Positions 1 through 29,008 of a stretch of DNA of 43,907 nucleotides are shown here, piece by piece. Numbering within the stretch: position 1 is the first letter of the stretch; the number at the start of each line of letters is the position of its first letter. The notes below the pieces were generated by a model. The model was not told where the DNA came from. It worked only from the letters and a program-made list of their open reading frames with translations, and did no database searches. Source of the stretch: Bacteroidales bacterium (GTDB lineage: Bacteria > Bacteroidota > Bacteroidia > Bacteroidales > UBA932); the NCBI GenBank assembly GCA_017620335.1, contig JAFZQO010000042.1, positions 1 through 43,907 on the forward strand. Direction: 5' to 3'. A program made the position numbers and the translations under genes.

Positions 1-72
1 AGGCGCTTCACGGAACGGATTAAGAAGCGAAGAGAAGATAGAGATGTTTGCCAAATGTTTGCCAAGTTATAA
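1..72 (+). CDS. 3' end of an unidentified gene (partial)
   Basis: An open frame entering from the left edge ends at a TAA at 70-72. The 23 visible residues are rich in Arg, Lys and Glu and end MFAKL. The last part is encoded by two perfect tandem copies of ATGTTTGCCAA (44-54 and 55-65). A gene ending tail-to-tail against a tRNA gene could be an integrase of an integrated element, but nothing visible proves this. The fragment may also be chance. Confidence 0.25.
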   Translation, partial: RRFTERIKKRREDRDVCQMFAKL

Positions 73-107
73 AAAATACGCCTTCTAGATACCTAGAAAG
101 CGTATTT
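71..107 (-). terminator. Rho-independent terminator of the tRNA-Leu gene
   Basis: A 14-bp stem (75-88 paired with 93-106, one G-U pair) closes an ATAC loop. On the minus strand it is followed by a run of T residues (76-71). It lies just downstream of the tRNA 3' end at 111, so it should end that transcript. Confidence 0.7.
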
Positions 108-110
108 CTG

Positions 111-427
111 TGCCCCGGGCGGGAATCGAACCCGCACGGCCATTTCGGGCCAAGGGATTTTCTTACTGCTATGGCTTTCACCACCGGAAGCGCTGTCGAC
201 AGCTTCGTTCCGTTCGTAGTCCGGACTATTCCTTCACCGTGGATTAATCATCTTTAGGTGTGTCGTGTCTAGTCTCTGCACCTTCCTCCACTGGGAGACT
301 TGGCTCAAGATTACCATCGGCATTACCCGTTAAGGCTTCCTTGAATTTACGACATTCTACTTCCCTCCTTTCGGAGAGAGCACTCAAATGTTTAAGTCCC
401 TCGTGTCTACCATTTCACCACCAGGGC
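111..427 (-). tRNA. tRNA-Leu(UAA), interrupted by a group I intron
   Basis: Exon 1 is 427-394 (34 nt, starting GCCCTGGTGG and ending CTT) and exon 2 is 161-111. Joined, they form a complete class II tRNA. The 7-bp acceptor stem pairs 427-421 with 118-112, and the discriminator A is at 111. The anticodon stem AGGGA/TCCCT closes the loop CT-TAA-AA, giving anticodon UAA. The long variable arm contains GGCC and GGCC-complement repeats. The T arm reads GCGGG-TTCGATT-CCCGC. CCA is not encoded. The intron (393-162) splits the anticodon after its first base. The amino acid follows from the UAA anticodon and the long variable arm. Confidence 0.93.
162..393 (-). ncRNA. Group I self-splicing intron in the tRNA-Leu anticodon
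   Basis: The 232-nt insert has the hallmarks of a group I intron. The 5' exon ends in U, and ACUU can pair with an internal guide GAGU (about 385-382), leaving a U-G pair at the splice site. The last intron base is G (162). A hairpin with a GAAA tetraloop (about 364-379) fits P2. The Q-like segment reads AATCTTGAGCC and the R-like segment GTGCAGAGACTAGACA. The S-like segment GGAATAGTCC supplies UAGUC to pair with GACUA of R (P7, the guanosine site). A P9-type hairpin surrounds the palindrome GCTGTCGACAGC. No endonuclease gene is present. Site, size and R/S core match the tRNA-Leu(UAA) introns known from cyanobacteria and plastids. Confidence 0.9.
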
Positions 428-438
428 GGTTTCGAGGG

Positions 439-446
439 CAAATATA
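439..446 (-). promoter_or_regulatory. -7 element of the tRNA-Leu promoter
   Basis: TATATTTG on the minus strand matches the Bacteroidota -7 consensus TAnnTTTG. Transcription would start near 433, a few bases before the mature tRNA 5' end. No clear -33 element is seen at the expected distance. Confidence 0.6.
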
Positions 447-20760: not shown

Positions 20761-21452
20761 CTTCCCTCCATCCAGTCCTTCAGCACGATAAGGCGCGCTC
20801 CAGACGGCAGCGTCAGGTCCGCCTCGCAGTGCAGGTGCCCGAAGATGAAAACGTCCACGTGCTGCCTTGAAGAGAACTCCTCGGCCCATTTGTACAGAGG
20901 CTCGGACGCACCCTTGAATACATAGGCCTCGTTGCGGGCGAGACGGCTGCGGCGCGACCATCCGAGGCCGAGCCTGAAGGCCAGCCATGGATGCAGGGTA
21001 CTGAAAAGCCGCTGTATCACGCGGTTCTTGAAGACGGCGTTCATGAACCGGTATCCGCCCACTCCCGGGCCCAGGCCGTCCCCGTGCCCGACGCAAAGGA
21101 CCTTCCCTCCGACCTCCACCAGCTGCGGCTGTTCCCGTACCACGGTTATGCCCATGGAGGTAAAATAATCATAGCACCATATGTCGTGGTTCCCCGGGAA
21201 GAAATATACCTTGACGCCAGCGTCAATGAGGTCCATCAGCGCGGCGAAGACCCGCACATAGCCCTTCGGGACCACGTCGCGGTACTCGTACCAGAAATCC
21301 CAGATGTCTCCCAGGAGATATAGCGCGAGGGTGGTGTCCCCGGGGATGTCCCGCAGGAAGGACACGAAGCGCTCCTCGCGGGCGGCCGGGTCCTTCACGT
21401 CCAGCCCCAGATGCACGTCGGAGACGAAATATACCCCCCTGCGTCCGGCCAT
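20700..21452 (-). CDS. LpxH-like calcineurin-type metallophosphoesterase
   Basis: A 250-residue binuclear metal phosphoesterase similar to UDP-2,3-diacylglucosamine pyrophosphatase of lipid A synthesis. Metal-site motifs are SDVHLG (Asp12, His14), LLGDIWDF, PGNHDIW, VGHGDG and FGHLHCE. Length and motif order fit the LpxH-like family of Bacteroidota. It is the last gene of an ftsX-DUF3098-uppP-lpxH-like run, all envelope functions, with a 3-bp gap to uppP. The last 20 codons lie inside the 3' end of the convergent DUF4294 gene. Exact substrate is inferred from family only. Confidence 0.85.
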   Translation of the reverse strand: MAGRRGVYFVSDVHLGLDVKDPAAREERFVSFLRDIPGDTTLALYLLGDIWDFWYEYRDVVPKGYVRVFAALMDLIDAGVKVYFFPGNHDIWCYDYFTSMGITVVREQPQLVEVGGKVLCVGHGDGLGPGVGGYRFMNAVFKNRVIQRLFSTLHPWLAFRLGLGWSRRSRLARNEAYVFKGASEPLYKWAEEFSSRQHVDVFIFGHLHCEADLTLPSGARLIVLKDWMEGSHFWYLDGILTGSGHSMNTE

Positions 21453-27217: not shown

Positions 27218-29008
27218 CTATCTGGCAAGGGCGGCGCGTATGCGGGCGGCAAGGGCCGGGCCGACCAGCTTCGCGAGGTCGGCCTCCGGCGCGGCCGCTA
27301 TCCGCGCCACGCTCCCGAAATGCATCAGCAGCCGCTGTTCCGTCTTCTCACCCACGCCCGGGATGTCGCGCAGGGCGGAGTGCACCTGGGCCTTGCTGCG
27401 CAGGTCCCGGTGGAAGGTGATACCGAAGCGGTGCGCCTCGTCGCGTATCTGGGTTATCACCCGGAACGCCTGGGAGTTGCGGTCGAGGAATAGCGGATAG
27501 GGATCCCCTATCCTGATGACCTCCTCAAGTCGCTTCGCAAGGCCCACGACCGTCATGCGGTCCTGGATGCCAAGCTCGCACAGGGCCTCCCAGGCCTGGC
27601 CGAGCTGGCCTTTGCCGCCGTCGATCACCACCAGCTGGGGCAAGTCGTCCGGGGCTTCCGCCAGCAGGCGGGAATACCGCCTGTTCACGATCTCCTTCAT
27701 CGAGGCGAAGTCGTTGGCCCCCACGACGGTCTTTATCTTGAATTTCCTGTAATCCTTCTTCGACGGGACTCCGTCGCGGAACACGACGCATGACGCCACC
27801 GGATTGGTGCCCTGGATGTTGGAGTTGTCGAAACATTCCATGTGCACCGGCGCCACGGACATCCCAAGGGCCTTGCGGACATCCTCCACCACGGCCGCCC
27901 GGAAAGCGTCGGGGTCGGTGTGCTCGCGCTGCTTCATGGCGTTGAACTGGAACTCCTTCGCATTCTTCAGGCTCAGAGTGAGCAGGGCGAGCTTGTCCCC
28001 CCTGACGGGGATGTGGAAGCTCACGCCCGGAATCTCCACGTCCGGGAGGAAGGGCACGATGATCTCGCGCGACAGCTCCCCGAACTTGGACTCGATCTCC
28101 GCGATGAAGCTGCTGAGCACGGCCGCCTGCTCCTCCTCGATGTTCATCCTGAAGCCCAGGTTGAGCGACTGCACGACCGAGCCGGAGCGTATGCGGAGGA
28201 AATTGCCGAAAGCCTCGCTCCCCTCGAAGACGAGCGAGAAAACGTCGGCGTCGGTGTCCCGCGCCGCGGAAATGATGGAATGCGAATAGTGCTTCTCGAG
28301 CGCCGAGATCTTCTCCTTGTACTCCTGGGCGGACTCGAAGTCGAGGGCCTCGGCGGCCTGCGACATCCGCTCGCGGTAGCGGTGCAGGATGTCGCCCACG
28401 CCGCCCTTCAGCAGCGAGGTTATCTCCTCTATCCACCCGCCGTACTCCTCGACGGAAACGGCCCCGACGCAGCAGCCCCTGCATTTCCCGATATGGAAAT
28501 CCAGGCAGGGCCTGACCTTCTTCCTCAGGATGGACTCGGAATCTATCCTGTGCTTGCAGGAACGCAACGGATAATGGCCGTAGAACAGGTCCAGCAGGCC
28601 GTGCGCGTAGGTTGCCGAGCTGTAAGGCCCGAAATAGCTCGAGCCGTTCTGGACAAGGCGGCGCGTCAGGAACACCCGCGGATAGGGCTCCGCCGTGACA
28701 CAGATCCAAGGATAGGTCTTGGAGTCCTTCAGAAGGATGTTGTACTTGGGCTTGTACTGCTTGATGAGGTTGTTCTCGAGCAGCAGGGCGTCGGCTTCGG
28801 TATCGACCACAGAATACTGCACGTCGGCGATCTTCGACACCAGGATGCGGGTCTTGGTGTTGAGCCTCTCTGGCGGCACGAAATACTGGTGGACGCGCTT
28901 GAAAAGGTCCTTGGCCTTGCCCACATAAATGACCTTTCCCTCGGAGTCGTAATACCTGTAGACTCCGGGGGAATGCGGTAAAAGGTCTATCTTATCCCTG
29001 ACTTCCAC
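27218..29008 (-). CDS. uvrC: Excinuclease ABC subunit C
   Basis: The 596-residue UvrC makes both incisions in nucleotide excision repair. Domains in order: GIY-YIG nuclease (about 12-95, GVYRYYDSEGKVIYVGKA), Cys-rich region (RPCLDFHIGKCRGCCVG), UVR motif (about 200-240), the RNase H-like nuclease (from about 370, ECFDNSNIQGTNPVAS and LVVIDGGKGQLGQA), and C-terminal helix-hairpin-helix repeats (IPGVGEKTEQRLL). It starts with GTG, whose G is the last base of the upstream TAG stop, suggesting coupled translation. Confidence 0.96.
   Translation of the reverse strand: MEVRDKIDLLPHSPGVYRYYDSEGKVIYVGKAKDLFKRVHQYFVPPERLNTKTRILVSKIADVQYSVVDTEADALLLENNLIKQYKPKYNILLKDSKTYPWICVTAEPYPRVFLTRRLVQNGSSYFGPYSSATYAHGLLDLFYGHYPLRSCKHRIDSESILRKKVRPCLDFHIGKCRGCCVGAVSVEEYGGWIEEITSLLKGGVGDILHRYRERMSQAAEALDFESAQEYKEKISALEKHYSHSIISAARDTDADVFSLVFEGSEAFGNFLRIRSGSVVQSLNLGFRMNIEEEQAAVLSSFIAEIESKFGELSREIIVPFLPDVEIPGVSFHIPVRGDKLALLTLSLKNAKEFQFNAMKQREHTDPDAFRAAVVEDVRKALGMSVAPVHMECFDNSNIQGTNPVASCVVFRDGVPSKKDYRKFKIKTVVGANDFASMKEIVNRRYSRLLAEAPDDLPQLVVIDGGKGQLGQAWEALCELGIQDRMTVVGLAKRLEEVIRIGDPYPLFLDRNSQAFRVITQIRDEAHRFGITFHRDLRSKAQVHSALRDIPGVGEKTEQRLLMHFGSVARIAAAPEADLAKLVGPALAARIRAALAR

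Follow-up and report, generated by a model that had tools for sequence, protein, structure and literature searches.

The trnL intron is the textbook ancient intron and serves as an evolutionary marker. In the portion available to us, a 2014 review (PMC4033280) gives its insertion site for cyanobacteria and plastids and confines the group I introns of bacterial tRNA genes to cyanobacteria, alpha- and beta-proteobacteria; the accessible part of PMC4476775 presents an ancient origin and describes the distribution as mosaic. The tRNA-fMet intron of Synechocystis is accompanied by an endonuclease, I-Ssp6803I, which is of the PD-(D/E)XK type and is aimed at the anticodon region (PMC1995217, in extracts). 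According to the available text of PMC3984707, which contains no word beginning with "Bacteroid", the phage introns then known all lay in protein genes; phage tRNA introns were first reported from the Lak phages, huge phages of the gut, and the sections of that report at hand call them enigmatic, place them in genes for tRNA-Thr and tRNA-Tyr and do not name them group I (PMC6784885). The excerpts available of PMC11835236, PMC12363816 and PMC7886860 hold nothing on bacterial or phage tRNA-Leu introns, and within the open-licence literature, as far as its texts were accessible, we found no earlier report of a group I intron in a Bacteroidota tRNA gene or in a phage tRNA-Leu gene.

The DNA analysed here (the window, meaning the whole stretch) is a 43,907-nt contig of a 2.76-Mb draft genome (G000, 96.6% complete). 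An earlier note, made from the letters alone, had placed in it a complete tRNA-Leu(UAA) of a Bacteroidota genome, split by a 232-nt group I intron at the classical insertion point after U34. The host genus is Candidatus Cryptobacteroides (Bacteroidales), in agreement with that assignment, and the intron-aware tRNA search that the note had suggested returns the gene as described: with introns allowed, ARAGORN prints tRNA-Leu(taa) c[110,427], interrupted after position 34 by 232 nt of intron, the exons being 427-394 and 161-111. A tRNA finder without the intron option overlooks the gene; default ARAGORN (introns off) lists 0 tRNAs in the window. Acceptor, D, anticodon and T stems are all paired according to ARAGORN, the variable arm is long, CCA is not encoded, and joining of the exons gives the junction GGGACTT followed by AAAATCCC. 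The elements of the gene and intron are as follows, cell counts referring to the alignment of 27 introns described below:

111..427, minus strand: tRNA-Leu(UAA) gene with intron (intron-aware ARAGORN, end read from the sequence; ARAGORN prints 110-427)
439..446, minus strand: TATATTTG, upstream of the tRNA gene (read from the sequence)
394..427, minus strand: 5' exon, 34 nt, 3' end ...GGGACUU (U33 U34) (ARAGORN and sequence)
162..393, minus strand: group I intron, 232 nt, preceded by U394, last base G162 (RF00028, ARAGORN, covariation)
111..161, minus strand: 3' exon, 51 nt, starting AAAAUCCC (ARAGORN and sequence)
71..106, minus strand: terminator-like hairpin, then a six-T run, directly 3' of the tRNA (read from the sequence)
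383..396, minus strand: P1, CUUAA 396-392 with UUGAG 387-383, U394.G385 wobble at the 5' splice site
363..378, minus strand: P2 hairpin, 378-373 with 368-363; 156/162 cells paired, double changes in 6/6 pairs
261..354, minus strand: P3, 354-349 with 266-261; 160/161 cells paired, double changes in 6/6 pairs
305..344, minus strand: P4, 344-340 with 309-305; 133/135 cells paired
336-334 with 315-313, minus strand: P5, inside P4; 61/81 cells, the weakest helix
281..303, minus strand: P6, 303-302 with 282-281, P6a hairpin inside; 53/54 cells
224..274, minus strand: P7 (guanosine site), 274-270 with 228-224; 135/135 cells, the search pattern having set most of the 3' strand
235..260, minus strand: P8, 260-257 with 238-235; 106/108 cells
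166..219, minus strand: P9.0-like pairing, 219-216 with 169-166; the window copy has one A.C (alignment)
within 166..219, minus strand: P9b, 185-183 with 175-173 (alignment)
244..393, minus strand: HNH C-terminal remnant, 49 codons and stop, in frame through the core, HLSALSERREVECRKFKEALTGNADGNLEPSL... (against the intact ORFs of loci L011, L015 and L021)

The octamer at 439..446 presumably resembles the Bacteroidota -7 promoter element.

Covariance model RF00005 gives 43 tRNA matches in the draft genome. ARAGORN on 30 of the loci and 13 fetched stretches reads the leucine anticodons CAG, TAG, GAG and CAA once each and no further UAA, and a joined-exon pattern (up to 3 mismatches) finds no intact tRNA-Leu(UAA) in the genome. 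The draft genome thus yielded a single tRNA-Leu(UAA), the window copy, and the second intact gene that, according to the earlier note, would have made it dispensable did not appear. Because no other copy was found, splicing of the intron is probably essential for the host; UUA codons are rare but present (12 long window ORFs, chosen by hand, use UUA for 2 of their 641 leucine codons).

Membership of the group I class, which the earlier note had read from conserved core segments, is borne out by a covariance-model match together with covariation. RF00028 (Intron_gpI) matches 403-208 over the whole model (1-253) with 46.7 bits and E 1.3e-10, which is below the curated cut-off of 50 bits, a threshold rather than a structural feature, and for this reason a gathering-level Rfam scan of the whole window lists nothing; the Rfam check that the note had proposed thus succeeds as a significant match and falls short only of the curated score. 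RF00028 matches 15 of 61 genomes (G000 and 60 relatives) at E <= 0.001, and in 8 of these the score of 51.0-61.7 bits exceeds the cut-off. The P1 pairing, the U before the intron and the terminal G are all present as claimed (CUUAA/UUGAG, U394.G385, G162).

For the covariation test, 27 diverse and short introns, the window's included, were chosen, with sources in Bacteroidota, Pseudomonadota, Acidobacteriota, Planctomycetota, Bacillota, Bdellovibrionota and IMG/VR contigs. Over 43 named pairs in P1-P9, 1110 of 1159 cells (95.8%) hold standard pairs, against a mean of 75.0% and a maximum of 77.7% in 500 shuffles. Changes on both sides in at least one intron occur in 26 of the 43 pairs, 18 of them in P2, P3, P4 and P8, helices free to vary under the search pattern. 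The pattern by which most loci were found prescribes AGTCC, the 3' strand of P7, together with some of the 3' strand of P9.0, and each of the 27 introns was chosen for GGAYTT in the 5' exon, so that P7, P9.0 and P1 owe part of their pairing to selection. In P1, C-G, U-A and U.G are kept in 27/27 introns, the 5' strand partly by selection. All core helices of the window intron are able to form in this alignment; its thermodynamic folding energy is weak (z -1.68 and -1.41) and not decisive alone. Judged from these features, the element is a real group I intron and not a chance resemblance.

We take the subgroup to be tRNA/IC3-like. Bulge-helix-bulge tRNA introns are short, usually lie at 37/38 and are cut by a splicing endonuclease; such an intron does not fit the length of 232 nt, the site after position 34 and the group I core. 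Elsewhere in the window, 771-877 on the minus strand weakly matches TD-1 RNA (24.1 bits, the cut-off being 64.5; E 0.16), probably by chance.

Introns of congeners carry an HNH ORF in the P1 loop, up to 215 aa long, that continues in frame through P2, P3, P4 and P6 and in L015 and L021, for example, reaches P8, that of L011 stopping earlier; the tail of the protein is therefore encoded by the ribozyme core. The congener protein matches Pfam HNH and HNH_3 and, in PHROGs, phrog_10822 (E 4.3e-47). No complete endonuclease ORF exists in the window intron, but its 49-codon frame matches the HNH tail (compare L021, ...KLSALSERRDVECRKFKEALTGNADGNLEPSLFKEEGAETRHDTPKDD); Pfam assigns 0 families to this remnant, which is too short to match. 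A length series of 38 distinct introns of the genus and family, covering 30 of the 44 intron matches in the genus, contains 34 of the window's lineage: 21 measure 210-234 nt and have no HNH ORF, four (264, 305, 389 and 607 nt) have none or a broken one, and nine (722-739 nt) have an HNH ORF of 135-215 aa counted from the first M. Because the open remnant frame matches the intact ORFs, the window ORF was probably lost by deletion rather than gained later by its relatives, although the HNH-bearing relatives could have acquired the ORF after the window lineage split off.

The HNH ORFs of the sister copies show few amino-acid changes relative to silent ones. Over the 28 pairwise comparisons of 8 ORFs, pN/pS outside the core has a median of 0.26 and a maximum of 0.34; the short C-terminal tail has a median of 0.25, with single pairs up to 1.9. 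These uncorrected values were used because NG86 was usable in just 2 of the 28 pairs for the HNH part, probably owing to saturation. In four other loci (L155, L271, L287 and L469) the HNH ORF lies in the P6 region and not in P1, ending just before J6/7.

Within the genus, both the filled and the empty site are common. The intron junction pattern occurs in 44 of 121 genomes and the uninterrupted gene in 45; two (G446 and G455) have both, and these frequencies are rough because 34 genomes gave neither pattern. Among the 54 better genomes each allele is found in 25, and a control pattern read backwards gave 0 matches in the genus genomes. On contig C6 of G446, the intron-bearing and the intact tRNA-Leu(UAA) lie ~7 kb apart (28559-28612 and 21406-21435). 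Flanks were compared for 12 of the 45 empty loci: six share an upstream flank with filled loci in the same orientation, reaching the gene in four (L414, L418, L422 and L423; best pair L422 with L404, 83% over 1240 bp) and lying ~0.9 kb further from it in two, and for the other six no common upstream flank was found. In the window, L391 and L408, the intron gene lies near the same gene, which from its sequence we would call a HAD-family gene.

A second intron lineage is present in the same tRNA in at least four genus loci (L382, L388 and L395, printed as Leu(taa) by ARAGORN, and L392, printed as Ser) and groups with Prevotellaceae introns. A single clade of 18 genus and family introns is rejected (AU p 2.9e-69, on a tree with long branches), and on this basis the tRNA-Leu(UAA) site of one genus is occupied by two unrelated intron lineages. 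Beyond the genus, RF00028 matches 8 of 119 genomes drawn from the family, G000 included; two of these, G129 and G065 (29.1 and 27.7 bits), were set aside for want of a conserved core or split tRNA. Genomes from other families of the order gave 0/24 RF00028 matches. Two further searches were narrower: BLAST of the window core against 295 genomes of the order matched G000 alone, with at most 2 candidates scored in the 21 genomes listed, and the exact junction pattern occurs in 3 of 395 genomes of the phylum, G000 included.

A search pattern reaching from P7 to the 3' splice site found at least 120 GTDB loci and at least 120 IMG/VR loci, which are not a random sample. ARAGORN prints tRNA-Leu(taa) with an intron for 86 of 120 GTDB loci listed and 98 of 120 IMG/VR loci listed; the remaining listed loci have no or another anticodon, partly through mis-parsing, as with L180 (printed Ser) and L150 (printed Phe), whose exons read by eye are Leu(UAA), the counts keeping the printed labels. 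The 86 listed GTDB loci divide into Bacteroidota (42), Pseudomonadota (26), Bacillota (7), Acidobacteriota (3), Chloroflexota (3), Planctomycetota (2), Bdellovibrionota (1), Armatimonadota (1) and one unplaced, so that, among the loci listed, genome records of at least eight phyla contain tRNA-Leu(UAA) introns; some contigs may be misplaced or viral, since many of the records are metagenome bins.

Contigs of at least 100 kb account for 26 of the 98 listed IMG/VR tRNA-Leu(taa) loci, and tRNA-Leu(taa) introns are also found in the uncultured phages LR756501 (735 kb) and LR756511 (595 kb) and in the 490-kb Agrobacterium phage Atu_ph07 (recorded host A. tumefaciens C58). A conjugative plasmid of Bradyrhizobium ISRA435 carries one as well; BLAST with this gene matches 1272 of 72,556 plasmid records, 1263 of them with at least 80% of the query covered, mostly enterobacterial, at 60-80% identity in 1268 of the 1272. 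Three plasmid copies beyond that of ISRA435 were inspected: two enterobacterial ones have exons read by eye as tRNA-Leu(UAA), and a B. elkanii copy gives no tRNA in ARAGORN. In plasmid pCTX-M3 (NC_004464.2, 1501-1799 of locus L474) and in LR890263.1 (1001-1297 of L475), the tRNA-Leu(UAA)-like gene with its group I intron has a predicted aac(3)-II gene as a neighbour at ~0.65 kb; ARAGORN prints Stop(tta) for both, and the exons are Leu(UAA) by eye. Scans of viral contigs with the lineage-specific and the cyanobacterial core patterns gave 0 matches each, and BLAST of the Anabaena intron (sequence entered by hand) gave 0 plasmid matches and two partial phage matches.

Intron cores were extracted by HMM, which matched 255 of 257 loci (not L264 and L313); the duplicates L009, L013 and L024 were left out. 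Of 364 rows, the joint alignment kept 306 (at least 60% filled), thinned to 232 and then to 130. The 130-row tree, whose bootstrap had not settled, places the window in a Bacteroidales clade (96/88) beside the IMG/VR introns L058, L079, L101 and L360, which have HNH ORFs in P1, and one Armatimonadota locus; the phage rows L310, L283 and L268 inside the window clade have long branches and are probably misplaced. A 99/98 branch separates this clade from the Azoarcus intron (sequence entered by hand) and 17 of 18 proteobacterial rows. Anabaena, represented by a single sequence, likewise entered by hand and homologous in its core (HMM E 5.9e-23), sits on a long end branch (0.74) at a fork supported by 90/88. 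In a tree of 45 HNH proteins, the Bacteroidales proteins of the window lineage form one clade (100/100), and two further Bacteroidota groups stand among phage proteins; the HNH protein of L021 is 50-53% identical to the P1 HNH proteins of L058, L101, L360 and L079. The contigs of L079, L101 and L360 are viral by IMG/VR assignment, and of 10 of their ORFs 4 match PHROGs (a sigma factor, a clamp loader and two enzymes, with 0 structural genes). Both trees are unrooted, and the direction of transfer cannot be read from them.

The cyanobacterial and plastid trnL intron resembles the window intron in its tRNA, insertion point, similar size and homologous core, and the window copy likewise has no complete ORF; it differs in that the window's sister copies carry an HNH gene and are patchily present in one genus, whereas the cyanobacterial and plastid lineage is regarded as stable, largely vertical and without an endonuclease. 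The introns of Azoarcus tRNA-Ile and of proteobacterial tRNAs, which we take to be IC3, share the small architecture, the anticodon-loop position and the homologous core but, apart from one proteobacterial row, fall across the 99/98 branch. With the Synechocystis tRNA-fMet intron the window's lineage has in common a group I intron in a bacterial tRNA gene and an endonuclease aimed, in the window's lineage presumably, at the anticodon region, although enzyme type and tRNA differ; with the Lak introns, the occurrence of relatives in tRNA genes of huge phages, although in other tRNAs. Phage group I introns in protein genes belong to the same ribozyme class and have HNH proteins of the same PHROG families, but the best 20 of 44 matching records cover 35-46% of the window intron at 70-77% identity. 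Of the hallmarks of HNH homing introns, the intact ORF is absent from the window copy and present in congeners, and empty target sites exist in close relatives (45/121 congeners).

We consider the window intron to be the descendant of a homing intron that has lost its HNH gene and splices within the only tRNA-Leu(UAA) found in its Cryptobacteroides genome, with a probability of about 0.85. The ancestral intron would have encoded, from the P1 loop into the core, an HNH enzyme that cut uninterrupted tRNA-Leu(UAA) genes, repair of which would have copied the intron in. The window copy, having lost all but the 3' end of the HNH gene, would still splice but no longer move by itself: the precursor tRNA would fold so that P1 presents the 5' splice site as a U.G pair, bound guanosine would attack there, the freed exon would then attack after the terminal G, and ligation of the exons would yield tRNA-Leu(UAA). 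We propose that the intron is retained because it is rarely deleted precisely and because the host would lose the tRNA if splicing failed. Points against this reading are the RF00028 score under the cut-off, the A.C in P9.0 and the weak P5. The first two of these, with the lost ORF and the rarity of UUA in the chosen ORFs, could instead signal a decayed, non-splicing intron or a pseudogene; this is very unlikely given that every core helix can form, the tRNA stems pair, a terminator-like hairpin is present and no other tRNA-Leu(UAA) was found.

Residence in tRNA-Leu(UAA) since before the phyla split, a case that has been made for cyanobacteria and plastids, with loss in most Bacteroidota, would account for the insertion point shared with the cyanobacterial intron and for a homologous core in many phyla, but it is very unlikely: two unrelated lineages occupy one site in one genus, sister copies carry HNH ORFs, matches are scarce in other families and across the phylum (0/24 and 3/395 as above), the Bacteroidota label, pooled, needs 10 changes on the core tree, at least 5 of them forced by starred branches (superseding 14 changes and 6 forced with the window's family counted apart), and a constraint to one Bacteroidota clade is rejected (AU p 0.0008). 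The earlier note had allowed either transfer between phyla or very old descent with loss elsewhere, to be settled by an intron tree and a survey of relatives. Very old descent is unsupported because filled and empty alleles are about equally frequent, some flanks are common up to the gene and two lineages share one site; transfer fits better because of the sister HNH ORFs and the related introns in phages, plasmids and other phyla, a mobile background that the note missed. A phage or plasmid might also have brought the whole tRNA gene, replacing or supplementing the native one, in place of homing by the intron alone. Phages and plasmids do bear intron-containing tRNA-Leu(UAA) genes, two congeners hold both alleles, ~7 kb apart on one contig in G446, and in half of the empty loci compared no upstream flank shared with filled ones was found, with a further two sharing only a distant stretch; against this, the flank common up to the gene in 4/12 is as expected for an intron entering a resident gene, and the intron genes of the window, L391 and L408 lie near the same putative HAD-family gene. 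Whole-gene transfer is accordingly an improbable origin for this copy, and the homing-intron reading is kept.

On that reading, the window intron seems to be what erosion has left of a mobile element with kin, some of them still encoding an endonuclease, in other bacteria, giant phages and plasmids. It is ordinary in kind; what is unusual is a patchy, phage-associated and apparently mobile lineage at the trnL site. The textbook site is polymorphic in one gut genus, where two intron lineages have used it, and phages and plasmids have introns there too; it offers a natural system for following how an intron invades, how its endonuclease gene decays and how its ribozyme is kept in a probably essential tRNA. 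We advance only tentatively, as somewhat less probable than its negation, the broader idea that the tRNA-Leu(UAA) anticodon serves universally as the homing site of one superfamily of phage and plasmid group I introns, with repeated entry into chromosomes and decay of the HNH gene after each arrival, the cyanobacterial and plastid trnL intron being one settled branch and not a unique relic; the origin of the plastid intron becomes testable in these terms.

Some intron cores lie outside tRNA-Leu. Eight IMG/VR contigs (L039, L047, L065, L075, L076, L084, L113 and L130) combine the group I core pattern with introns placed by ARAGORN in other tRNAs (Thr, Asn, Asp, Gln and His), possibly of the kind called enigmatic in Lak phages. 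In the Pelagibacter phage HTVC120P (997-1152 of L478), an intron core lies between two CDS annotated as capsid protein and shares 80% identity over 163 nt with the tRNA-Leu intron of the 735-kb phage, which suggests movement between a tRNA gene and a protein gene.
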